From NCBI GenBank assembly GCA_000310025.1, contig FN649730.1:1673195-1711128 (forward strand): a stretch of 37,934 nt of DNA, given 5' to 3'. Both the position numbers and the translations under genes were made by a program. The notes beneath the pieces are model-generated. The model saw only the letters and a list, made by a program, of their open reading frames with translations. It ran no database searches and had not been told where the DNA came from. The DNA is from Ectocarpus siliculosus (taxonomy: Eukaryota > Sar > Phaeophyceae > Ectocarpales > Ectocarpaceae). Shown piece after piece: positions 3,884 through 31,800 of the stretch (position 1 is its first letter; each line of letters opens with the position of its first letter).

Positions 3884-5674
3884 GTCTACTACTTTGCACG
3901 TGTACCTATGCTACATGGTCTCGTCCGCTAGGCCTCATGCTACGAAGTGAACTTCTTCAACGATTGCAAATCATTTGCACAGATGCCTGCTTAGCCACAA
4001 AAGAAGCAACCAACAGAGCCAAGATCCGTGACTGGTTGCAAGACGACCCAACCAGCCAACTATGTATGCACGGCAGGATTCATGTGTGTGAGAGCATGAG
4101 AGGGGCGGACAGCAAGTTGATGCAGGGAGTACTTCACGTCCGATGTTTCAAGAGCTTCGCATTTCCTTCCGGACATCTCTCGTACAGGAAGGGCGACTCG
4201 CAAAAACACTCACCAAATGACTTCTTCCGCCCGTGCAGCTCAACAACGTACGCCAGGCAACACCTGCTTGGAGCAGCGGTATGTAGTCACCAGCAAAGTA
4301 CACAAGTACAGGGTCAGGGGCTCAACAGCTAGGATTCGAAATATCGCGGTATAGACTATTCCACCTACAGTTTCGAACCCCCCGCCCGGCAACGTTGGAG
4401 CGCAGCACAGCAGCCACGCTGCCACCTTCGCTTACCACAGTGCAGTACGCACCGCGATGGCAGGAGTAGTGACACAAAGACGTTTTGGCTGGGTGGTGCT
4501 GCGAGGATCTCCATTTGTGGGAAAGGTGCGCAGGACGATTTGTGTGTATACTACTTGATACAGCAGGCAGTCCCTTGTGTGTGCAAACTGCTGCTGTGGG
4601 TGTAGAGCGAAGAGGTCAACAAAGGATAATCGTTTGCACGCGCGATTCTGTCCATTTCCTGGGTGGAACGTCGCCACACGCCAACAATCTGTGTGCATAT
4701 ATGCAAGCATTCGTTCTAGAGCAGGCTACAACAGAGTAGCAGCAGCAGAGAACCGAACAGGATGGTACACTGCGCAGAGATACATCAGTACTTAATGCCA
4801 ACGCCAACATATATGCTATCTCACTATTAGACTATGATGCATGCATGTAATGTGTCGTCCCTTCGTGTACTGCTGCTGACAGCACTACATATAGGGGAGT
4901 GCACATGTGTGTAACAAGCCCGCGCCTTGCGACTTTGTTCTGCGTTAGGCAGTTAGGGTTTTTGGATTTTGGTGTATATGCCGATTGTTCCCACCACTTC
5001 AATGTGACATGTGACACGTGCACATTCATGCATCCCCCATGCACAAGGACATGGCGGCTTTGGCAGGCGCGCATGTGTGTTCATGATCTACAGCATGGTC
5101 TAATCGCCTGTGGACAGCAGCATGCCTGTTGACCGGTTGTCTCCACACCTGGCATGCCCATCGGTCCCTTGATTCTACACAACAGCAGTGTGTGCAACAA
5201 CTGCGCTCATAGTACCCCTCCCCAATCTCTCTCTCTCTCTCGTTCTTTGTGTCGCTGGCTCTCTCGTGTTGGGCACCGACACAGCACGGAGCAACTGCGG
5301 CCGCGCCACGACTTGTTCCAGTTCGACGCGGCAACCTCTGCACCAATCTTACTCATGTTAGGCGAGTACCTTGGCGAAACGAGATGCTGAACTGCTTCAA
5401 ACATTGAGCACAGGTTTCCCCGTAACATGACACGACCCTCTGTGCTTTTGTTCGTTTGAAACATGGCACACTCGCGTGGACGTGTGCCGGTCGTTTTGAT
5501 TAATACTGGTCGCTCCGAACTCGATTTCGGTACATGTGTAGGACTTACCCTTGTGGTAGTAGCGATTCTCATGATGCCAAATCGCTGTTTCGAGACTGAC
5601 TTCACCCCCCCTTTGCCCGATTTTTTCCTACTGGCCCATCGAAACGCCAACCGCTACTATTGACGGCGTCGCAG

Positions 5675-8600
5675 CGGTGGCAGGCAATTGTCGACGGTGT
5701 CGACAGCCGGGGGCAATGGAGGCAAAGATGGGGAGGGCTGCGTCGTGGTGGTTACCTCTGGCAAAGGCGGAGTGGGCAAAACCACGACTGCTGCCAGTCT
5801 CTCGTACGGCCTCGCTCAGGTGTGTACGTGTTGAGATGGTGACTTGCCTTTCCCTCTCTCAGGTGGGACTGATACCATGGTACGGAATCATGCCTGTGGG
5901 ATTGATGCCATGCGTTTCCCTCTCTCAGGTGTTACGGAATCATGTCTGTGGGATTGATGTTCCCTGGCCGAGGTGTGCACGGAGCGATGTGCATGGGGAT
6001 GATGTCATGCATTCCAAAGGGCACTTTGCCGGGCTCGAAAACACGAAAGTGATTGGATTTTGGGTGACGCAATAGCAGTTGTTGAAAGGGAGGCAGGCCA
6101 CTACCCCTGGCCTGTTGCCTGGCGTCTTTGGATCCACAGGGAGTGCAGTGCAGTCATTGGCAATTCAATGGTGTTTGTCAACAAGAACTTGACCTGCCTC
6201 ATCATCTTTTCCTTGCCATTTCGAGGTGCGTAGAGAGACGAAGCCCGGTTTTCACGGGCTATGGCCCCAAATAGGGTTCTCCATGTGTCATTATCTGCCC
6301 AGAATAGTTCCCTATCACCAAAAAAACGGCACAATGGACCATATATCTGGGTAGATGTAGGTGAGAAACCGAGAGAGGACCCAAACATTTTTTCAGGGCG
6401 AATGAGAGACACTCGATTCAGAGCGGTGTTGCTGCCGCATTGGATGGGGTAAGGGGGTATGTTCTAGAGGGTCCGCAGGAATTTAGAGCAACTGGAATAA
6501 AAGAAGGGGTTAACAGGGTCTTCAACAGCGAGATGGCTACAGTACAGGGACCTCTATAGTGCCGGGTAGTGTCCAGAAAAAAAAGCGGCACTAGACCGGG
6601 CACCGGCAGTATTCAGATTAGTACCTCAATAGTGCGGCACTATTGAGGTTTCGAAAATACCTCAGTAGTGCCAGTCCGGCACTATTGAGAAGATGTTGAT
6701 TTCATGGTGTAGCGCTCAAGCTTTGCGGGGCCAACAGAGTACGATGTGGATCGAAATTGTGCGTGCTGTGTTGTTAAATAGTGGACGAAGCATAATCTCG
6801 GTCCTCGTTGCCCTCCTTCGATCTTACCAGATAAAAGAAGACACCTCAAAAAGAGAACCACGACAGGAAGCGCAACGCAAGAAAAAACACCCAACAATTT
6901 ACCACAGCTATACCCCCCACCCTCACTACGCAGCAGCAACTCTCTGATGTCTGCCTTGCGCATCCCCTTGGATGTTGCAAGAAAGAATCAAAAACAAACA
7001 CAACAACAAAAGCACGACAGGAAGCGCACCTCAAGAAAAAGAACAACCATTTACCACAGCTATACCCCCCACCCTCACAACGTAGCAGCAACTCTCTCAT
7101 GTCTGCCTGGTGCACCCCCTTGGATGTTGCGATAAACAAAAACAAACAAAACAAGAAAAGCACGACAGGAAGCGCACCAGAAGAAAGCAAACAACCATTT
7201 ACAACAGCTGTACCCCACCCTTACTCCGTAGCAGCAACAAACTCTCTCATGTCTGCCTGCCGCACCCGCTTAGCGGAATGCGCTGCAATCATCGCCATCT
7301 TCGCTTTCGTTAGGAAGAACGCCGCGTCTCCGTTGCCACTTCCATTTGCTGTCGCTTTGCGCTTGGCAATCCTGGTGACGCACTTACTGCAGATGCGGTG
7401 CGTCTCGTTGTCCTCCAACACGCTGCCGCAATTGCCGTGGAGCCGCCCGCCACATCCTCCTTGGCAGACGTGGCCATGAGGGGCTGGCGGCGTTCGGTCT
7501 TGTTGATGGCACGGTGCACCTTCCGCACATGGCATGGTACGCCGCTGCGTAGAGCTGTTCGGGTCTGCAGCAGCAGTTGTACCCTCTTTTCAGTGTGGCG
7601 CCTGTCCTCTGGCGTGTGTGCGTGGTGCGCGGTGCGTGTGTGTGTCTTTATTATTAGCATCGACCGCGCTAACCGGCTGACCAATGACAAGACGTCAGCC
7701 TCAGTGCGATTGAAAACACAAAACGCTTGTAAATGCCATTGTAACCGAGACCCCGTGAGTGTGTGTGCGCGTGTACAACAGTAGTGAACCGGCACTATTG
7801 CGGGGCGTCGTGGCGCCCAACCGGCACTCTAGCGGGTCAGCTCTCAATAGTGCCGGCCCGGCACTATTGAGAGCGCTGTCTGTGTCCAGAGATTTTACCG
7901 GCACTATATCGGGCACCAGCACTATATCGGGCACCAGCACTAAAGAGGTCCCTGCACTGTACTCAGCTTGGATAAAACACAAAACCTTGCAGCACCTTGC
8001 AGCTCGTTCTATCCCACCCGATCTGAACAAGAGCCGAGGATCGTTCCCGCATCAACCGCGCGTGTGACATCTCACGATTTTTTTTCGCTCGCACTTGTGT
8101 GCATACGCCATTCCAAATCTGTCAGGCGGGGCACCGAACGTGTGTGATCGATTTCGATATCGGGCTGAGGAACATGGACTTGCATCTCGGCTGCGAGCGG
8201 AGGGTGATTTTCGACTTCGTCAACGTCATACAGGTGGTGGTCGCAGATTGTGGTTCCCAGACCTTGTAGATGACATCGTCCGCAATTTTTTGTGTTATTG
8301 TTGCGGTTGTGTTGCGGTTGCTGCTGTTGTCGCTGTGGCTGTTGTTGTTGTTGATGTTGTTGCTGTTGTTGATGTTGTGGTTGTTGATGTTGTCGCTGTT
8401 TGCTGTTGTTGCTGCTGCCGTTGTCGTTGTTTTCATCGCTGTTGTTTTTGCTGTTGTTCTCGCTGTTGTTGTTGATGATGTTGCGTTGACACGGAACGAG
8501 TCAGTGAAAGAGACAGACAGACTCAGGAAACCTTCCCTCCAGCTGCACTGACTGTAGTGTGAGGCATGGCTTTGTCGCTCGCAATCCGGTGAAGCTTGGG

Positions 8601-19800: not shown

Positions 19801-22800
19801 GAGCGCATCCTCCCGTGACTGCCCCTCCGTATATGTGAACATATCTACAACCAGAACGAAGAGAGCGCCTGGTGTAAGGAACATCTGGGCCGCGCGACAT
19901 CGGGGAGGCAGGACATCGGGGAGAACGGTCGTGGTTAAGTGCCCGTAAGTAGCGCATGTCATGGCGTGTGCCTCAAAGGAAAGAGAGGCCGACGACAGCG
20001 ACAGCCAAACATGTTACCAAACAAAAGCCTTCTCTTCATACACTTGTTCAGGTGTTTCCTGCGATGGTAAGATCACTGCTTGTTTTCACGTAGGATTCAT
20101 GATCGCTCCTACCTGGTGCGTGTCGTAGTATGCTCTCTGCCCAGCAAAATCCCACAGGCTGACGTCTAGCTCGACATTCGGCCCACTTCCTTCGTTGGTT
20201 GGGCCAGGTCCTAGCTTGATGTCCCGTATCTCCACGCCAACGGTGCGCTCCTCGGGTTTCGGACAGCTAGAGCCGAGTCGGTCTTCGAGTCGGGTGGCAA
20301 TGCTGGTCTTCCCTGCCTCGCCCAATCCAACCAACACAACCTTCAGGCGGTTGGACCATGCCCTGCCGTAGTCATCCAAGTCCCTGAGGAAAACAGCCGC
20401 GTGGGCCATGCCCTTGTTCATCACCTCGGCTGGTGGCTCCTTCCAAGGGTTGTTTTCGGTGCCGACGGTCACGTTTCTAGCCGCAAACCCTTCCGCCACC
20501 AATCTAGGAAACACTGACGAATACAAAGGGCCAAAAGGTGAATTGAAAACGTGCATGGTGTTTTTGAAACATCGAGAAATCAACTCTATTGGGAGCTGAA
20601 GGAAGCTGTGGTACAGTTGCGCCCTTGTGCATGCTGAACACTGTCACGTCTGCGGTTGTTGGACCCAGGGGGTTTGTGTTGAAAATAGGTCTTGAAACAG
20701 TACATGTGCAGCCTTTGTGGAGAACAGCTGTGACCAGCCATCGGAGGGATGTAGATGTGATCGGCGCCTCTTCCAACCAGCACAATGCGAAGAACTGTGC
20801 TGAGAGAATTACCGCAGGACCGTTTTTCTAGACGCCGGGGAATTTTAATAATGTAAAAATCATGTTCGTATGCCCGCTGCTGTGCTGCTAATGCAGGACA
20901 CATCCCCAAGGAACTTGGAGCTCTAACTAACCTGGAGCTGCTTTGGCTGGCAGGAAATCAGCTCATCGGTGAGGGGTGTGTCAAACGAAGTAATTGAAGT
21001 TACCAATTTTCAACTTTTCTAGACGGTTGGTCCTGCCGATGCTAGGCGGGACAAGATGTACGGATTTATTCATACAGGGATTTTCTTTCTAGAACTGTCC
21101 TTAGTGATATTTCTCCCTACTGCATTCTTGTGCAGGACCCATCCCCAAGGAGCTGGGAGCACTTAGTAGGCTGGAGAAGCTTTGGCTCCACCGCAACAAC
21201 CTCACAGGTGAGAGAATCGAAGAAAAGTTGAAATTTTTCTTGTTCACGAAATAAGAATTCTGCCGACGTACTTGGAGTCATAAAAGTTATCCCGCTAGTT
21301 CTGAAGTTTCGTGGACGCCAGCTAGTGGGCGGGACAGCATCTCCGGAGATCGAACATCAAGAACAATTCGAAATTCAATACTTTCCTTGGTTTGTTCTTT
21401 TGACTTGCTGCGTTATCTACAGGGCACATCCCACCGCAGCTAGGGAATCTGCGCGCCTTGGAGAGCCTCTGCCTCGATCGCAACTCTTTAGAAGGTGAGT
21501 TCAGGAACTTTATTTCGACTTCTCAAGAAGTGGTGTATGCATGAATCCTGCCGATGCGTCGGCGAGATTCATGTACCTTGTGTCAACATATTTAGAAAAT
21601 AAAATGGATTTCATCTCCTGGACTCACCATCTAACTTGTTGATGCTGAGATTGAGTCTCTTCAAGGCGCCAAGCTTCCCTAGCTCCGGAGGGATAAGACC
21701 TGCAAGCAGGAGAGCAGTACGAGAAAAACAGAGAATTGACTAAATGCTTCTCCGCCTACTCACGCATCGGCGTGATTCATGCACGCTGCTTCTGACGACT
21801 TCGAAATCTCACCTGAGAGGTAGTTTGAGTGCAGATATAGACGCTGTAGCGCAGTAAGCTTCCCTAGCTCTTCCGATATCGGTCCTGCATTTATGGCCAG
21901 TAACGAATACGAGCTGGGAATTAGTAGAGAGTGCCCCGGCTTCTGCACCAGTGCATGGACGCCAACTACATACACGGGATTCATGTTGAAAATTCATGGG
22001 ATTTTTTTTCAACACATCTAAACAGTGTCTCACCGCTTAGCTGGTTCTCGTAGAGGTATAGCTCTTGAAGCGCTGCGAGCTTTCCCAGCGCCGGCGGAAT
22101 GGGACCTGTAAGTGGAAGAAGGAAAACGGAGTGATGGTTGCGGGTCAAAACAAAAATAATGCCCCGGCTTCTGGACCAGTGAGTGGACGCCAACTGTAGT
22201 GGGTGGGACACGATCTACGTAGATCGAATATCTCGAAAAGAGAGAGCCGGGTGATTAAATTCTATTTCCTCCGCAAACGTATATTACTTGTTTGCAGGTG
22301 CGATCCCGGCGCAGCTCGGCGCTCTCAACAAGCTCGCGAGGCTCGACCTGTCCGACAACCAGCTCAGCGGTGAGAGACTGATAGAACTTGAATACTTTGT
22401 TAATTTTTCTCATAACGTGTTCATGTCCCCCGGCGGCGACGGGAAAATGGACGCCAACTAGTAGGCGAGTACGAAATTTCAGAACTCGAAAGATATCTTT
22501 TGCTCTACGTAATTTCCCTATGTATTTTGTACAGGACTCATTCCCAAGGAGCTGGGAGCGCTGAGTAAGCTGGAAAAGCTTTTGCTCGCAGGAAACCGGC
22601 TCACAGGTGAGGAACCGACACAGGTCGATCTGGATTCAAGGTGAATCCCGCGCACGCAGTTGGCGTCTACTCACGTGCATCAGCGAGATTCGTACACGGG
22701 ACTCGCCGCAAAATCGGTCGTGGAACAGTCATCAAATCACATGTTGACTCACCGCTCAGCTGGTTGAAGGAAAGGTAGAGCTTCTTCAGTGCTGAAAGGT

Positions 22801-25800
22801 GCCCAAGCTCCGATAGGATGGGGCCTGCAAGCGGACGGACGGAACGGAGTAGCTCAGCGGGACAAAATAAAACACTCCCCCGCTTTCTAGAACATCCGTC
22901 CCGACAACTAGTTGGCTTCCACGAAACTTCAGAACTAGCGGGATAACTTCGTCTGTACCCTGCCAAACTGCCCTGCGTTGAATCGTTCATCTGCAGGCCA
23001 TATCCCGCCTCAGCTCGGACAGCTTGGCGCCCTCCAGTACCTCTTCCTCTCCGGCAACAAGTTAGATGGTAAGTTGAACAGATCAAAAAGAGTTTTGTTC
23101 TTGCGAGTTCTGCCTGCATCAATCCCGCGTACGCTTCCTCTCCGGCAACAAGTTAGATGGTGAGTTGAACAGATCAAAAAGAGTTTTGTTCTTGCGAGTT
23201 CTGCCTGCATCAATCCCGCGTACGCAGTACGCGGGATTCATTGGTGGAATCAGGTCGAGAAAAATATCCTTCCCCACGACGCACTCAAATCCGCCATAGA
23301 TACTCACCTGTGAGCTTGTTACTGTGTAGACTGAGCACCTGCAGGTCCCTGAGCTGTCCTAGCAACGCCGGGATTTCACCTGGATGAATATGGAATGGAA
23401 AGAGGTTCGAAATAAAAAATGAAGAGTACTGCGAATCTGCGTAGATCTTGTCCCACTCATTGGTGGGATTCATCCCGGAAGTGTTTGTTTTGCAAACATC
23501 AAAAATTGCTTGGGCTCAATGACTTACCGCTTAGCGCGTTCCCGCCAAGGTCGAGTTGTTGCAGCGCTGCGAGGTTCCCGAGCTCCGGCGGGATGGGACC
23601 TGTAAGTAGGAGTACGATACAAATTAATCTGCTTTCTCTATTTTCAAGACAACCGATCTCGGTAGATCTTGTCCCGCCTACTACTTGGCGTCCTCTTGAA
23701 AATCGAGAGGCGGGATAATATTTCTTGTTTTTTGTCGCGCTTGATTTGTATCGCCCTCCTGCTCGCAGGCCCCATCCCGCGGGACCTCGGGAACCTCGCA
23801 GCGCTACAATACCTCAACCTTGGAAACAACGAGCTAAGCGGTGAGTTATGGAGCGCAACATGATATTTGCATGATATTTGCAAATTCGGAGGAGACAAAA
23901 GAAAAATCCCCGCGCTTTNNNNNNNNNNNNNNNNNNNNNNNNNNNNNNNNNNNNNNNNNNNNNNNNNNNNNNNNNNNNNNNNNNNNNNNNNNNNNNNNNN
24001 NNNNNNNNNNNNNNNNNNCCCCCCCCCCCCCAAACGCCAGACAATTTCCTATATAAACAAGTCTATAGTAAATCCAATATATAAAGTGGGCACATTTCAT
24101 GCAAGGGGGTAGTACAATCCACGTAGCCCCTGCTCCAGAGTGCCGCAGCCCGCAGCCGCGGTACCGTCCGTAGCAGAGGAGCGAGGGAGAGCGAGAGCTT
24201 GGGGAGAGTGGTCACGATGAGCACAGTCTCCGTGGGGATTCCTATCAACAACCCCCTTCGACAAGACGGCTTGGCTCAACCGCGTCTGCCGAGAGCGAGC
24301 GGATGGCATGGAGTTTGTTTGCTGCTGCGGACACAACTTCGGCGACGGTTCAGGAGTCGACGAGGGCACCGCCTTGCAGCATGAGGCTTCGCACAAGCAC
24401 GAAGAGTGAGTGTAGAGGAATGGGAATCATTTTGTGAGATTGCCTTGGTTGCATTATAGTATAATCTACCTCGCAGCAGCAGCAGCAGCAGCAGCAGCAA
24501 TAGCAAGAACAGCACACACAACAACCCACACCAAGGTTGGACGCAACCAAGAGTGCGTGAATGCGGAGCCCTCGCGATGCAACTGCCGTCGTGTTGTACA
24601 CACCAAACGTGGTTGTACTGCTGCCCGTGTAGCTGGCAGCGGCAGCTGCGTGTGTGTTGTGCTGCTTCCCATGTAACTGGAAGCAGCAGTAGAAGGAGCC
24701 TCAACAGCAGAGGCAGAAGCCGCAGCGGTAGCTGAGCAGCATGACAACTTGTGACAACGTTTGAGAAAAAAATGCGCGAAATGCAGACCGGCACCACCCA
24801 CAAGGCTGTGTGCCACGGGGATATTCGTGCCTCTGCAGAAGAACTGGCCTTTACATTTTGGTGTCCCCTGCCCTTGCCTGCCACTTTCCGCACGCCCATC
24901 GCATGCGGGCAGATCGCGTTCGCCTGTTGCGAAAATCGCCCAGAAGAATAGCAGTGGCCACTGGGGTTGCACCTCGTGCCAGCACTATTTCGGCTCCGGT
25001 GAAGGGCTGACCCAGCTTCATGTGAACCAGCACGAGAGGTCGACCGCACACATGTAAGGGCGATGGCCGTCGGTGTCCGCAGTTGCATTCTCGAGTAATT
25101 TGGACTGCTCACTTGTGCTTACCAACATTTCAAGACCTCGCAAGACCCGTTACTTTGTCTATCCTCGCCGCACGCATGTCGCGCAAAGTATCAATGCGTG
25201 CATGCAGCTTTGTCAATGTGTGCGAATGCGTCGCCTACTACGCAACTTGGCACAGTATGTACAGTAGAACGATTAGATCATTATTCCGTCTCTCAACGGC
25301 GGATCAATCAATATTTATTCACATCCGCAGGCGTGGTGCTGAAGCTAAGCGTCAGAGGAATACAATGCTGAGGTTTTAAACCGACGAGCACTACGGGCGG
25401 CGGGAAGGGGCCGAGGGACGTGATGGATAGCAGCGGTGGCGCAAGCAGTGATGTTGAGGTGGTTACGACGGGAGTTGCAGGCGGGCGTGAGGGCGGAGCA
25501 GGCGCGGGTAGCGACGCTGAGGTGATTGCGACGGGAGTTGCAGGCGGGGGTGGAGGCGGAGCGGGCGCAAGCAGTGACGTTGAGGTGCTCTCGACGGGAA
25601 TTGCAGGCGGGCGTGAGGGCGGAACGGGCACGGGTAGCGACGGTGAGGTGGTTGCGACGGGAGTTGTGAACGGGCGTGAGGGTTGTGAGGGCGCGAGCAG
25701 CGAAATGGATGGAGCTTTCTCCGACGCTGCACACGAGAGTGGTTCGACCGATATGGTGCGCGTCCAAAACCCCCTCCGCTGCGCGGGATTACGTCCGAAT

Positions 25801-28800
25801 GTTCGGGAGCGTCTTCTCCAACACTACCCAGCAGCTTTGCATACTGTCGTCAAAAAGGGGCTGTCGTGGGAGGCTCGGATAGACCCGAATGGCGTGGCTC
25901 TTTACGCCGTGGAATCCGTCTCCCGCGGCATCCTGAGCCCAGGTTGTGCTGGAGCAGTGGAAGAACCAGGAGGCACATGCGAGCCGTGTGTGGACATCAA
26001 GGGCAGTAAGGTTTACAGAGGTGAGACCACGTAGCGAATAAAACGCGAAATAGGAAGGCACAACTAGGAAGGCAAGACAATTTAACTGTCGCACCCTCAT
26101 TCCACCACACATGAACTTTTTTTTAATTGGATTGTTCCCTCTGCACCCTTTCCGTCTTGGAGCAGATGTGGTTCAACGATCATCGTTGGAGCCAGAAGAC
26201 TCAAGGTTGAAGCACTTTGCTCTAGATTTGTTGACTCCTCACCAGCAACGAGGCAGGCTGACGCGGTGGAAGAAGAAGTTCGAAGTGCAGAAACTGTACA
26301 CTTTGAACCAACTCAGGAAGTGCGCGGCTTTGCATGGTCGTGTTGCACTCGCGAAGAGTATCTTCATTTACATGGCAGACAATGACGTGAATGACATTCG
26401 AAGGTTGATGGCTCAAGCGCGGCGAGACGGCTTGTCGCTGAGTGGTATCATGCATAGGTTAGAGCAGGCGGTGAATGGCAAGTATAGTGCCAAAGGGTTC
26501 AGCGAGGATGAGTTTGACTTGGCAATACTGGAGGGGCTTCGGGGAGTGAATATTAAGTACCATCATCCAAGACAAATTGCTTTTAGTTGTGGATGGGTGT
26601 TGCACGTGGCGAAGGTGATTCCACCGCCGTAGGCTCATCGACAGCCCCTCTTCGGTATGTTGCCGGCTTGAGTAAGCTTGGAATAATGACGTTTCGACGC
26701 ATGGGTATGTGTCATTTGGTTGTGTCCTTTCGCCACATTCGACCGAGGTCAAATGTCGTGGACTTGTCGCAGAGGCTTGGAGAAGTTCAAAGCTACTTGT
26801 AGCTGAGGGGTTGTCCTCAAGCACTACTGCTGTACTTCAAGACTTGAAAACCAAATAAGAAGTGTCCCCAGCCCATCACAGCTTATTTCAGTACATGAAG
26901 TAGCAATCTACACCTTCCTAGTAACAAGGTCCTGCTTGCACGTCATGCCGTAAACACCACCACACGCAAGCACACGCAATGGAGAAGGAGAAAGCCAAAA
27001 GAAAGCCTGTACGAAAATATTCAAAAAAAAAAAACTTTTTTCACCCCCCTCCCGGGGGGGGGGGGGGGGGGTAGGGTTAGGTGTCGGAAAAAAAAAAAAT
27101 TGTGCGCCCTTGGCGCTTTCCGTACAAAACTTTCGTGGACGCCAACTACATACACGGGATTCATCCTGAAAGTTCATGGGAATTTTTTCATTGCATCTAA
27201 ACAGTGTCTCACCGCTTAGCTGGTTCCCTTGGAGGTACAGACTTCGAAGCGCTGCGAGCTTTCCCAGCGCCGGCGGAATGGGACCTGTAAGTGGAAGAAA
27301 TAAAACGGAGTGATGGTTGCGGGTCAAAACAAAAATAATGCCCCGGCTTCTGGACCAGTGAGTGGACGCCAACGCATACCCGGGATTCATCTTGAAAATT
27401 CATGGGAATTTTTTTTCAACACATCTAAACAGTGTCTCACCGCTTAGCTGGTTCCCGTAGAGGTGCAGATCTTGAAGCGCTGCGAGCTTTCCCAGCGCCG
27501 GCGGAATGGGACCTGTAAGTGGAAGAAGGAAGACGGAGTGATGGTTGCGGGTCAAAACGAAAACAATGCCCCGGCTTCTGGACCAGTGAGTGGATGCCAA
27601 CTGCGTTCGTTGGCAGGACCGTTTTTCTAGACGCCGGGGGATTAATTTTGTTTTCTCCCGCCAACTTCTTGTTTTCCCTTCGTCTGGCCGGCAACATCCC
27701 GCCAGAGCTAGGAAATGTCCGACAGCTGCAGAGGCTGTGGCTCAGCCACAACCACCTCACACGTACCTATTGATGGTCGGTTTTAATTTTTTAATCCATG
27801 AATGAATCTCGCCGATGCATCGGCGAGATTCATACACGAGACTCACGCAAAATCGGTCGGGAAAGGGCTATCAAATCACGTGTTGACTCACCGCTCAGCT
27901 CGTTGTTCGTAAGGTAGAGCGCCTTGAGTGCTGAAAGGTGCCCAAGCTCGGATGGGATGGGACCTGCAAGCGGATGGACGGAACGAGTAACTGAGCGGGA
28001 CAAACAAAAATAACCCCCCGCTTTCTAGAACATCGGTCCCGCCTACGCATACACGGGATTCATCCATGGAACCCGGTTTCATTTCTAAAAACTCGTGGTA
28101 CCTGTAAGGTTGTTGCAGTAGAGCAGTTGGTGACACGGGACAAAAAACAACAATCCCCCGGCTTCTAGACCACCTACTCGCCTACTGCATCGAACATCGC
28201 CGATGCGTGAATGGACACATAAATATGTTCGAGAAAAAAAAGTATCAAATTTCATCAGTCTCTCACCACTGAGCTGGTTGAAATACAGGTCAAGCACCGT
28301 GAGCTTATTTAGAGCGCCGAGCTGCGCCGGAATCGCACCTGCAGAAGAGTAACACATTAGCGGGGGATATAGAAATAAATCACCCGGCTCTCTTTATTCG
28401 GGATATTCGATCTCCGTAGATCTTGTCCCACCCACTAGTTGGCGGGACAAGATCTACGGAGATCAGTCGTCTTCAAAATAGATAAGCGGGTGGTTTTTGT
28501 ATTTCCCCCGCAAACATGTAATACTCTTCTACAGGTGCGATCCCGACGCAGCTCGGCGCTCTCACTAAGCTCACGTGGCTCGACCTGTCCAACAACGAGT
28601 TAGATGGTGAGTCCCGGAGACCCAACGCGAAATACTACTTCGACTCGCAAGAATGATAGGCATGAATCTCGCCGATGCATAGGCGAGTAGGCAGTCACGT
28701 TCTCGGGCTCGGCGTTTCTATTAGGCGGGAGAAATATTGTGTTGTTCCTCGTTAGGGCCGTAATTACTTCCTCATTCGCTATAGCACTGCAGCAATAATC

Positions 28801-31800
28801 CCTTTCGCAAAACCAGCTAATTGGTTCGTCTATTGTTTCCCCCCGATCAAGGTCAGGATGAATCCCGCCGATGCCGGCTTCCCGAAGGGACATACATACG
28901 CATAGATGTCTCAAATTTTCCCAGCTGCGGCGGGATGGGGCCTGCAGCAATGAGCTAATAATCCGGATTAGCGAAGAGTAAACACTGTTTCCTCCCGCCT
29001 CGTCTACAACTACTCGGCCGGTACAGCAGCCGATATTCCAGAGGGAATCGTCGGGACATTTTCGGAAGACCGGGGAGCCGGGAATGTACGTCAAATTCGT
29101 TGCCTATGTGGACATCTTGCGCTAACCAGGAGATACACCGTAGGAACTGGGGGATATGTCAGAGTTCGGAGAGAGCTGCATCTCAGCGACAAACAACCTG
29201 GCAAGGTGAATTATTGGACGTTGACTACACAACCCATACCTGATGAGGTGAGCACCAGAAAAACGAGATTGACTGCATTCCTAAACACAGAAGTTGTAGA
29301 GAGCAAAAACGAGGAGGGGTTATCTCATCTCGACCACAATTCGCAGTTTGGTCGGTCGACCACATCCATCTTACAGTAGAGGTCCCTGTTTAAGGCCGCA
29401 AATTTAAGGCCGGTGGCCCTGTTTAAGGCCGGTGAAATCGCCTGCCCCAAATGCCTTCCTTTTTAAGGCCGCACAGGACATAAAAAGGGGTGGTCCCTAT
29501 TTAAGGCCTGTTGCAGCCTCCTCCCACCCTATTTAAGGCCGGTTTTGGGGTGACGCACGCAGGTTCGGCCGCATTATTTTCAAGCCACAACACAGCAGCT
29601 CTCGACATCTCCACACACACAACACACAACAGCCTATTGTAGCGTACCCCTATCGACCCAACCAGTAGGGGCATACATGCCTTGTGCGGCTGGTGAGCTG
29701 TACACCAGCCCATGGACATGGGGATCATCGCGGCCACCAAGGTGATCTACAGGAGGGAGCTACTCGACGTCAAGGTGTCAACCATGCTCGTGGCTGATGC
29801 ACTGCGCGCCGAGGCCAAGAAGCGTAAGATGGTGGCTGGGACCAAGGGCTTGGCGGAGGGAAATCACCCCCACGTGCTGGACGCGGCAGATCTTCTCAAG
29901 ACCGCCTGGGACAGCATCACCCCCAGGACGATCGCCAGGTATTGCTTCAAAATAGTTCAAGTGCTGTCCGTTTTTTCCGTCTTCAAGTTAGAACCCGGTG
30001 TTGCATTTTTTTAGTTGTGTGCCTTCGCAGGGCTTGCTGCTATTATGTACGTGTCGCTGTAGAAAATACGAAATAATTTGACATCGCTCGACAACTCGTT
30101 CGCCGCAATGTATCCTCGTTGCTGGTGCCCGACGCTCACAATCTCTACTGCGTTTGTATCGCTGCTCTTCCCGCGTCCCGTCCACCAGGTGCTTCGTGAA
30201 GGCCAAGACCCTCCCGGAAGAGATGGAGGCTGCGCTGACGACCGTGCACGGGAAACAGAGGCAAAGCAGCTCGGCGGGCTCTGCGGGAGGGCCAGTGCAG
30301 GGGCGTGCAGACAAGGAGCCGGTGGACCTTCTCGCGGAGACCCTCACCAGCATGAGCTCACGGGTGCGTGAAGCACAGGAGCGGTCCTGCGGTGTTGACA
30401 CGGAATTGACAGAACTGTTGGCCACCCTGGGTATCACTGCCAGAGAGCCTGCCAATGCCGCCGCTGTGCGAGCGGCTGAAGTGTGGGCGACGGTGGAGGA
30501 CCAGCCGGATGTGGTGGAAGCCATGCAGCAGGACGCGGTGGACGAGATGACGCAGCTGCTCGAGGGCAAGCTTCTCGCAGAGGAGAGCTCGGACGACGAA
30601 GCGACGGAGGAACCCACGGCTCGTATGGCACCACCGCCGTACGCGGCAGTGTCGTCGCACTTCGGGGCTCTGGAAACGGCAGCAGAGGAAAGCGGCAACC
30701 ATGACGCCGCTTTCCATCTGCAGAAGGCCAAGATGGCGATGATCGCAGCACATACTTCGAAACCAGCGAGGCAGACGGACATGAGGCAATTTTTGTAAAC
30801 TCGATACTTGTAGGCGCATGGGGGGGGGGCGTAAGTTGAGTGGCTTTCCCGGGTCCGGTATTGTAGATCAGTTTCAACAGCTGTCACGGCAGAGTCTTCT
30901 CTGCCAATTTGGTCGGTCGGTCGCCCTTGATCGTATGCAGGAACACTCTTGTTTTTTCAACCATCGTGTGCCGTTGCTATTGCATGCAGAAGATGTTTTT
31001 TTTTTTGTGTGTGTGTGTGCCGTCGTTGTTGGACGGGTAAATATTAACATGTGCAACATATGTAGATCGTTGTAGGTTTTTGTGGCGTATCTACGTCCTC
31101 TCAAACTGAGCAGCATCAGCACGTAAGCAGCACATTTGTCGACCCTTCGTGAGTAATTTTTTTCATTCTATGGTGTCCTTGCCGTCCGTACTTTCACGTC
31201 TTCAATTTTCACGTGACACTCTGCTTTTCTGTCGTTTAGGTTGGTTTTGTGACCTGGACCACGACATATATGTTGACCAGCTACAGTAATGTACAGTAGG
31301 GTAGTCACCAAGAGGGAGGCACTTGGTAATTTCTGTTGTTATTACAGATTGGCGGGTAATAACATTTGGAAACGTGCAAACATCATTTGACACGCTGTGT
31401 CGTCATTCAGTACATACATACGTAGCAGTGCCATGTGGTGCACATCCAACGCGGCGCTGTGGCACTGTGAGTGAGTGATATACACCCCTGCTGGCTTTCA
31501 GACATGTTTGAACCGGCCCGCTTCCCGCATAGCCTTGAGTGCGCTGCACTATTCCTCAACAAGGCCGGTACCGGCCTTATTGAGGAATTCATAATCCTGT
31601 ATAAGGCCTGTACCGGCCTTAAACAAGGGCCGTTTCCAGTAAGGCCGGGTGCCCTGTTTAAGGCCGGTTTGTACCTTCCACACTATGCGGCCACCTCTAC
31701 TGTATAGACTCTAGGCGGAAGCACGTGCAAGCAGCGCATGCCAAACACCTTGGAGGTCGTTGTTCAGCAGGTCAAGCCGCACTACGCGGCCCTCGAAGTT

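Follow-up and report, generated by a model that had tools for sequence, protein, structure and literature searches.

In ROCO-type genes of the brown alga Ectocarpus siliculosus, leucine-rich repeat (LRR) exon cassettes are, as we hold with moderate confidence, inverted and relocated through a direction-free recombination site, here called the seam, which lies at the joints between them. The analysis centres on a window (the whole stretch examined, 37,934 nucleotides; contig FN649730.1, our contig C5, positions 1673195-1711128, in a genome of 189 Mb and 492 contigs) in which LRR exons of a candidate immune-receptor gene occupy both strands beside a ROC domain. The LRR part of such genes is an array of exon cassettes with fixed ends, running from seam to seam, and in our view exchange between seams, at the core or a few bp off it, moves and inverts the cassettes. 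Because the site lacks direction, a cassette would land in either orientation; palindromes arise where like ends meet. A sequence-specific cut at the core, made by a recombinase or by a nuclease followed by end joining, would then be the driver. Exons lying antisense cannot be read into the receptor; mostly intact, they could return to it by another inversion, and antisense cassettes might thus serve as a reserve.

The unit in question emerged from 23 loci, 17 of them chosen for matches or near copies of recurring sequence modules and six taken from around other LRR exon matches. A profile search over these loci placed 316 LRR exons, of which 258 are fully intact and 289 measure 72 bp, with an AG before 298 and a GT after 284 of them. 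Genome-wide, the exon pattern occurs at 546 places (up to 2 mismatches; one place for the reversed control), so that the exons analysed are a part of the genome's total. A ROC match, in some cases a weak one, lies near the assigned array at 8 of the 23 loci. Among 293 neighbouring exon pairs, 10 with gaps outside 20-450 bp were left out, and the remaining 283 intervals contain 149 strand switches, where 144±8 are expected when orientations are shuffled within loci; the exons of an array point either way practically at random. Median interval lengths are additive, at 192.5 bp for head-to-head (HH), 136 bp for tail-to-tail (TT), 165 bp for plus-plus and 162.5 bp for minus-minus neighbours, which is what exons flanked by a long 5' half and a short 3' half would give, whichever way they point. 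Located seams give half-introns of about 88-98 bp (5') and 65-70 bp (3'). The cassette accordingly comprises a 5' half-intron of about 90 bp, the 72-bp exon and a 3' half-intron of about 67 bp, roughly 230 bp altogether.

At the joints between cassettes stands a dyad close to CGCCNAY-GC-RTNGGCG. Read inwards, the 5' ends run G (85%), T (97%), N, G (87%), G (97%), C (71%), G (82%), and the 3' ends A/G, T (94%), N, G (54%), G (78%), C (93%), G (83%), GGATTCAT; both begin about RTNGGCGRG and thus form terminal inverted repeats. Since the two ends read alike, the seam is a near-dyad around a short, self-complementary core, usually of 2 bp: this length was found in 158 of 227 seams, and 148 of the 158 have GC (127) or TA (21). 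The seed motifs were typed by hand after the list of palindromes had been read, and the fit gave a 2-bp core an advantage of 0.5 bit per bp. Two 14-bp end profiles were trained on the switch intervals alone, the 134 same-strand intervals being kept out, and the cut-off was set at the 99% level of shuffled sequence. Seams above it were located in 227 of the 283 intervals, all 18 of the window included; the other 56 were excluded from seam counts. Of the 134 same-strand test intervals, 83% exceed the shuffled level, and of 435 control tiles outside the arrays 11 pass with the same-strand model (on either strand), 11 with the HH and 5 with the TT model. The 6-mers GTTGGC, CGTTGG and ACGCGT, found without any profile, occur 50-95 nt after the donor in 31, 27 and 24 of the 134 same-strand introns, and at 6-44 nt in 3, 2 and 1 of them. 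In two further loci, which stand outside every count, exons again lie on both strands and an exact dyad separates a minus from a plus exon. As a genome-wide probe the dyad CGCCNACGCGTNGGCG, with 1 mismatch, proved too unspecific, matching 164 places where the reversed pattern matches 62.

One type of 5' half-intron carries a GATCT module that is palindromic, or nearly so, on its own. In tests made after the data had been inspected, such ends, which are of the TA type, meet each other at 6 HH seams (2.0 expected, P 0.0025), always with a TA core, and at same-strand seams a clean core, GC or TA, is less common with a GATCT end (1 of 8) than with other ends (61 of 101; P 0.02). These small, post hoc comparisons hint that cores may have to match.

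If cassettes move as units, the similarity of near-identical copies should stop at seams. We counted the endpoints of similarity matches of at least 80 bp, with no whole-exon requirement, and restricted them to cassettes with located seams on both sides, which at 97% identity retained 155 of 195; endpoints are counted from both copies and are hence not independent. At 97% identity or more, 103 of the 155 are found no farther than 15 bp from a seam, a zone that makes up 12% of bases, and 9 fall in exons, which make up 29%; at 99%, 34 of 47 are at seams and one is in an exon. The share at seams climbs with identity, from 47% at 90% through 57% at 95% to 66% at 97%, as expected for recent events. 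Of 487 endpoints, 192 come within 5 bp of a true seam, and 2-17 do so once the seams are displaced by 25-75 bp. The region within 30 bp of seams contains 343 endpoints, and 187 of these fall at -2 to +4 bp from the seam centre, a breakpoint peak sharper than template switching along a palindrome would lead one to expect. The outermost 10 bp move with the cassette, their identity being 0.94 and 0.97 and that of the inner part 0.97.

Inverted and relocated copies are visible. At locus L010, the arrangement of two cassettes is X(-)Y(+) at 4759-5287 but Y(-)X(-) at 6950-7502, with Y 100% and X 96% identical, and at L015 it is Y(+)X(+) at 5326-5855, each 96% identical; one cassette is turned and its neighbour is not. 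Neighbour pairs that are also adjacent elsewhere (56 at 90% identity, counted in both directions of comparison) are collinear in 22 cases, reordered in 20, and have one member turned in 14. Within arrays, pairs of at least 95% identity show opposite orientation 10 times and the same orientation 8 times.

How do palindromes relate to this process? A preliminary description of the window had tied nine palindromic stretches to strand switches between LRR exons, and had proposed that they might be sites of inversion or template switching. All nine are present, seven of them good and two weak, with complementary arm positions of 13/16 (21541-21572), 8/8 (22211-22226), 5/5 (22905-22914, just 10 bp), 12/13 (23212-23238), 5/7 (23655-23668), 7/10 (27595-27615), 16/16 (27802-27833), 26/28 (28409-28464) and 9/10 (28668-28687). 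It had counted eleven strand switches; we count 10, including an exon fragment at about 28912-28945 and excluding the assembly gap, besides 8 same-strand intervals. Within the window the association is borne out, the best palindrome scores of the 10 switches exceeding those of the 8 same-strand intervals (one-sided P 0.010). Over the 23 loci it persists in modest form: a score of 7 or more is reached by 54 of 149 switch intervals (HH 28/74, TT 26/75) and 19 of 134 same-strand intervals, and a score of 10 or more by 21 and 8 of them, respectively, but at 12 or more significance is lost for switches overall (P 0.16) and is kept by HH alone. Seven of the nine palindromes sit on a seam. The other two are GATCT modules lying off seam, one (22211-22226) self-palindromic and within the 5' half-intron of exon E7, the other at 23655-23668. 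In intervals with a located seam, the axis of palindromes scoring at least 8 is no more than 4 bp away from the seam centre for 20 of 21 HH, 11 of 12 TT and 8 of 12 same-strand cases. The modules that had been noticed as recurring mark the two ends of the cassette, palindromes form where like ends meet, and the joints are indeed points of rearrangement.

That the palindromes form hairpins and thereby cause inversion or template switching is already disfavoured, and we consider it highly improbable. For it speak the greater frequency of palindromes at switches, a spacer-free inverted pair of 350 bp in the window (28262-28611, 74% complementary), and a similarity of HH seam arms that across 10-30 bp is a little above random (P 0.03-0.04; at 10 bp 0.667 against 0.625, P 0.03). 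Over 45 or 60 bp the HH arms show no such excess (P 0.15 and 0.35), and GATCT ends may lie behind part of it; TT arms resemble each other no more closely than 3' ends paired at random (P 0.66-0.83). Moreover, same-strand seams break as often as the others: of matches ending at or crossing a seam, those ending make up 255 of 274 at HH, 204 of 223 at TT and 584 of 632 at same-strand seams. Strongly palindromic seams end matches less (mean 0.80 over 29 seams against 0.93 over 116 weak ones, P 0.0004), and arm identity is unrelated to the ending of similarity (rho -0.04). The exons on either side of HH and TT seams match each other at the level of random exons (0.580 and 0.585 against 0.579), which rules out inverted duplication of neighbours as the rule. 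The palindromes therefore look like by-products of cassette joints and not their causes. A 62-bp palindrome at a same-strand seam of locus L021 (from 4984) has a left side resembling a 5'-type end, which implies that half-introns of both types are exchangeable.

Could the cassette itself be mobile? A small transposon-like unit with terminal inverted repeats, hopping with a preference for the ends of other cassettes, would account for the short inverted repeat at both ends, for the precise outer edge, and for near-identical cassettes in many arrays and orders. Such a unit should leave solo copies, and neither of the two tested modules provides any: all 21 places of TTGTCCCGCCNACTAGTTGG with up to 2 mismatches, among the matches listed, and all 15 exact places of TGAATCTCGCCGATGC fall inside the LRR arrays fetched. 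Neighbouring cassettes are also separated by a single short core and not by paired target duplications. We thus regard hopping as improbable. The same confinement of exact and near copies (with 1 mismatch, 29 of 33 places of TGAATCTCGCCGATGC remain inside the arrays) rules out that the modules are an ordinary genome-wide repeat family, the outcome that the preliminary description had named as contradicting its proposal. At looser settings both patterns, like their reversed controls, match elsewhere too. Viral contigs contain no exact copy of the acceptor-side module.

Several observations weigh against recombination at a direction-free seam. The data basis is one genome assembly, without reads; 56 of the 283 intervals have no seam above the cut, and in the six loci picked by exon pattern seams appear in just 13 of 26 intervals. 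The core is not 2 bp in 69 of 227 seams, even though the fit slightly favoured that length, and one copy was exchanged about 10 bp inward of the cassette end. Matching of cores is not strict, since HH seams with one GATCT end have a TA core in 5 of 10 cases and other cores in the other 5 (post hoc). Searches for a candidate enzyme gave four weak places for the tyrosine recombinase family PF00589, one of them over the cut-off, and a single fragment for the serine recombinase family PF00239, none of them with a demonstrated link; the sole matches of the two families over their cut-offs, both partial, are at C76:55488-55793 and C16:5122087-5122275. Finally, in the 8 loci with a ROC match sense exons are more often intact (68 of 77) than antisense exons (44 of 61; P 0.027). 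Judged by open frame and length alone there is no significant difference (71/77 and 53/61, P 0.40), and the sense strand itself is uncertain at L009, L010 and L011, where ROC matches lie below the family cut-off (E 0.001-0.007), and near L014, where the ROC copy carries a stop. Antisense exons have thus decayed slightly more while mostly keeping their frame, which fits recent turning and use as a reserve alike.

The irregular cores and the displaced exchange mean that end joining after a cut, or short-homology repair, is possible. In its simplest form the latter would be ordinary repair, in which scattered breaks are joined through microhomology, or by short-tract homologous recombination, via the 10-20 bp common to seams and with no dedicated enzyme. 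Seams that are short and similar yet degenerate agree with this, as do the 69 irregular cores of 227 and the exchange about 10 bp within an end. Against it, the exons, over which cassettes share sequence for longest (72 bp, with 58% identity between random pairs), hold 9 of the 155 endpoints, and endpoints peak at -2 to +4 bp from the seam centre and are not spread along the shared end. We consider ordinary repair unlikely. A more specific version of seam recombination, in which a sequence-specific enzyme acts on direction-free seams in germ line or soma and silent antisense LRR exons can be flipped into the receptor, is conceivable, and we put it forward only tentatively, as rather doubtful in this full form.

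The arrays of the window belong to the published shuffled ROCO LRR genes of brown algae. Zambounis 2012 is said to describe brown-algal ROCO genes with shuffled LRR exons, and combinatorial immune receptors were reportedly proposed for brown algae in that year. Extensive LRR exon shuffling in these genes is covered in the parts of Teng 2024 (PMC11378527) consulted here, which propose LRR-only loci as a reservoir, favour alternative splicing, and state that no recombined locus and no recombinase is on record. The genes they treat resemble ours in having phase-2 exons of 72 bp, each encoding one LRR, in a gene with a ROC domain. Unlike the present arrays, they are presented in those parts without a cassette boundary or joint sequence, and the terms 'orientation', 'invers' and 'antisense' are absent from the main text. 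Our literature searches, which did not extend to the text of Zambounis 2012, returned no mention of inverted LRR exon cassettes or of a seam in brown algae.

Three recombining systems invite comparison, each as far as the consulted parts of the source describe it. In the shufflon (PMC5430464), coding segments likewise lie in both orientations between short inverted repeats, and inversion reorders them and alters a recognition protein; here, the corresponding traits are a short inverted-repeat site between segments (227 of 283 intervals) and inverted segments with joints at the site (L010, L015). The shufflon, though, resides on a bacterial plasmid, uses the recombinase Rci and shuffles partial reading frames at one gene end, whereas the present segments are spliced exons of a eukaryote, for which recombinase searches gave weak or fragmentary matches. 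The loxPsym sites of SCRaMbLE (PMC10850332) owe their lack of direction to a palindromic spacer and permit inversion, deletion and relocation without preference, and non-identical spacers hinder exchange; they belong to an engineered Cre system with an 8-bp spacer, whereas the seam is natural and degenerate and its putative core measures 2 bp. As in the lamprey variable lymphocyte receptors (VLR; PMC13428168), genomic LRR cassettes supply a receptor with variable LRR content. Lamprey assembly is gene-conversion-like, involves cytidine deaminases and takes place in lymphocyte development (PMC13428168), while our cassettes have splice sites and fixed ends and are known from one assembly. We assign the present system to none of the three. 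The V(D)J recombination signal combines the heptamer CACAGTG with an A-rich nonamer, and inspection of the cassette end consensus reveals neither. Family searches for two other domains found COR at one place and TPR mostly in long open frames.

LRR exon shuffling in brown algae is thus already published, and inverted cassettes and the seam are without mention in the papers searched. Receptor-gene rearrangement in these algae is an open proposal. A defined unit, a defined joint and visible inversions of single cassettes turn it into a question for PCR and long reads, and the seam offers a bait sequence for an enzyme. If true, enzyme-driven flipping at seams would be a natural eukaryotic counterpart of recombination at symmetrical sites, and a mechanism for the combinatorial immune receptors reportedly proposed in 2012.

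In the window, the ROC domain (Pfam PF08477) of the ROCO gene adjoins the array at 20113-20343 on the minus strand; minus exons are therefore sense and plus exons antisense. Among named proteins its closest match, from Ectocarpus fasciculatus, covers 62% of the query at 96% identity. The 19 LRR exons, each of 72 bp, span 20897-28606. Antisense exons are E1 (20897-20968), E2 (21136-21207), E3 (21423-21494), E7 (22298-22369), E8 (22535-22606), E10 (22997-23068), E13 (23769-23840), E16 (27691-27762) and E19 (28535-28606). The sense exons are E4 (21628-21699), E5 (21813-21884), E6 (22034-22105), E9 (22753-22824), E11 (23308-23379), E12 (23528-23599), E14 (27213-27284), E15 (27441-27512), E17 (27892-27963) and E18 (28267-28338). 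A minus-strand exon fragment follows at 28912-28945 (profile match 28912-28939). Before the assembly gap every exon is intact, 7 on the plus and 6 on the minus strand. E16, whose acceptor AG is lost, was left out of the window alignment, which comprises the other 18.

Seams between same-strand exons lie at 21032-21050 (E1/E2, core about 21041), 21259-21279 (E2/E3, core GTA), 21757-21776 (E4/E5, ends overlapping), 21958-21978 (E5/E6, core GTA on minus), 22452-22470 (E7/E8, weak, score 9.6), 23450-23469 (E11/E12, ends overlapping), 27365-27384 (E14/E15, core GC) and 28038-28057 (E17/E18, core GC). HH seams occur at 22186-22207 (E6/E7, core TGTA at 22195-22198), 22900-22919 (E9/E10, core TA, with palindrome 22905-22914), 23673-23692 (E12/E13, core TA at 23682-23683), 27593-27613 (E15/E16, core TGC) and 28427-28446 (E18/E19, core TA, centre of palindrome 28409-28464). 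TT seams occupy 21547-21566 (E3/E4, core GC, centre of palindrome 21541-21572), 22670-22689 (E8/E9, weak, score 12.5, ends overlapping), 23215-23235 (E10/E11, core GCA, with palindrome 23212-23238), 27808-27827 (E16/E17, core GC, centre of the perfect palindrome 27802-27833) and 28668-28687 (E19/fragment, core GC).

Some further features deserve mention. The assembly gap within the window array is a run of N at 23919-24018, followed by a run of C, and the next 3 kb or so, up to 27100, contain no LRR exon match. On C13, at 1372942-1557920, a series of LRR exon-pattern matches occupies solely the minus strand (all 15 exact places among the matches listed); with its longer gaps (561, 1095 and 577 bp in L027) it represents a differently built LRR group. 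Seam-like joints are present in 2 of 3 introns of L027 and in 0 of 2 of L029, so the LRR arrays include no clean negative control. A second copy of the window ROC exon, 85% identical and with one in-frame stop, is found at C11:4822409-4822963, about 7 kb from the L014 array. Lastly, at 23069-23156 of the window the end of E10 and its 3' half-intron are tandemly repeated; the repeat unit stops at the CGCGTACGC seam end, and its second copy (23135-23156) is a partial exon with a donor of its own.

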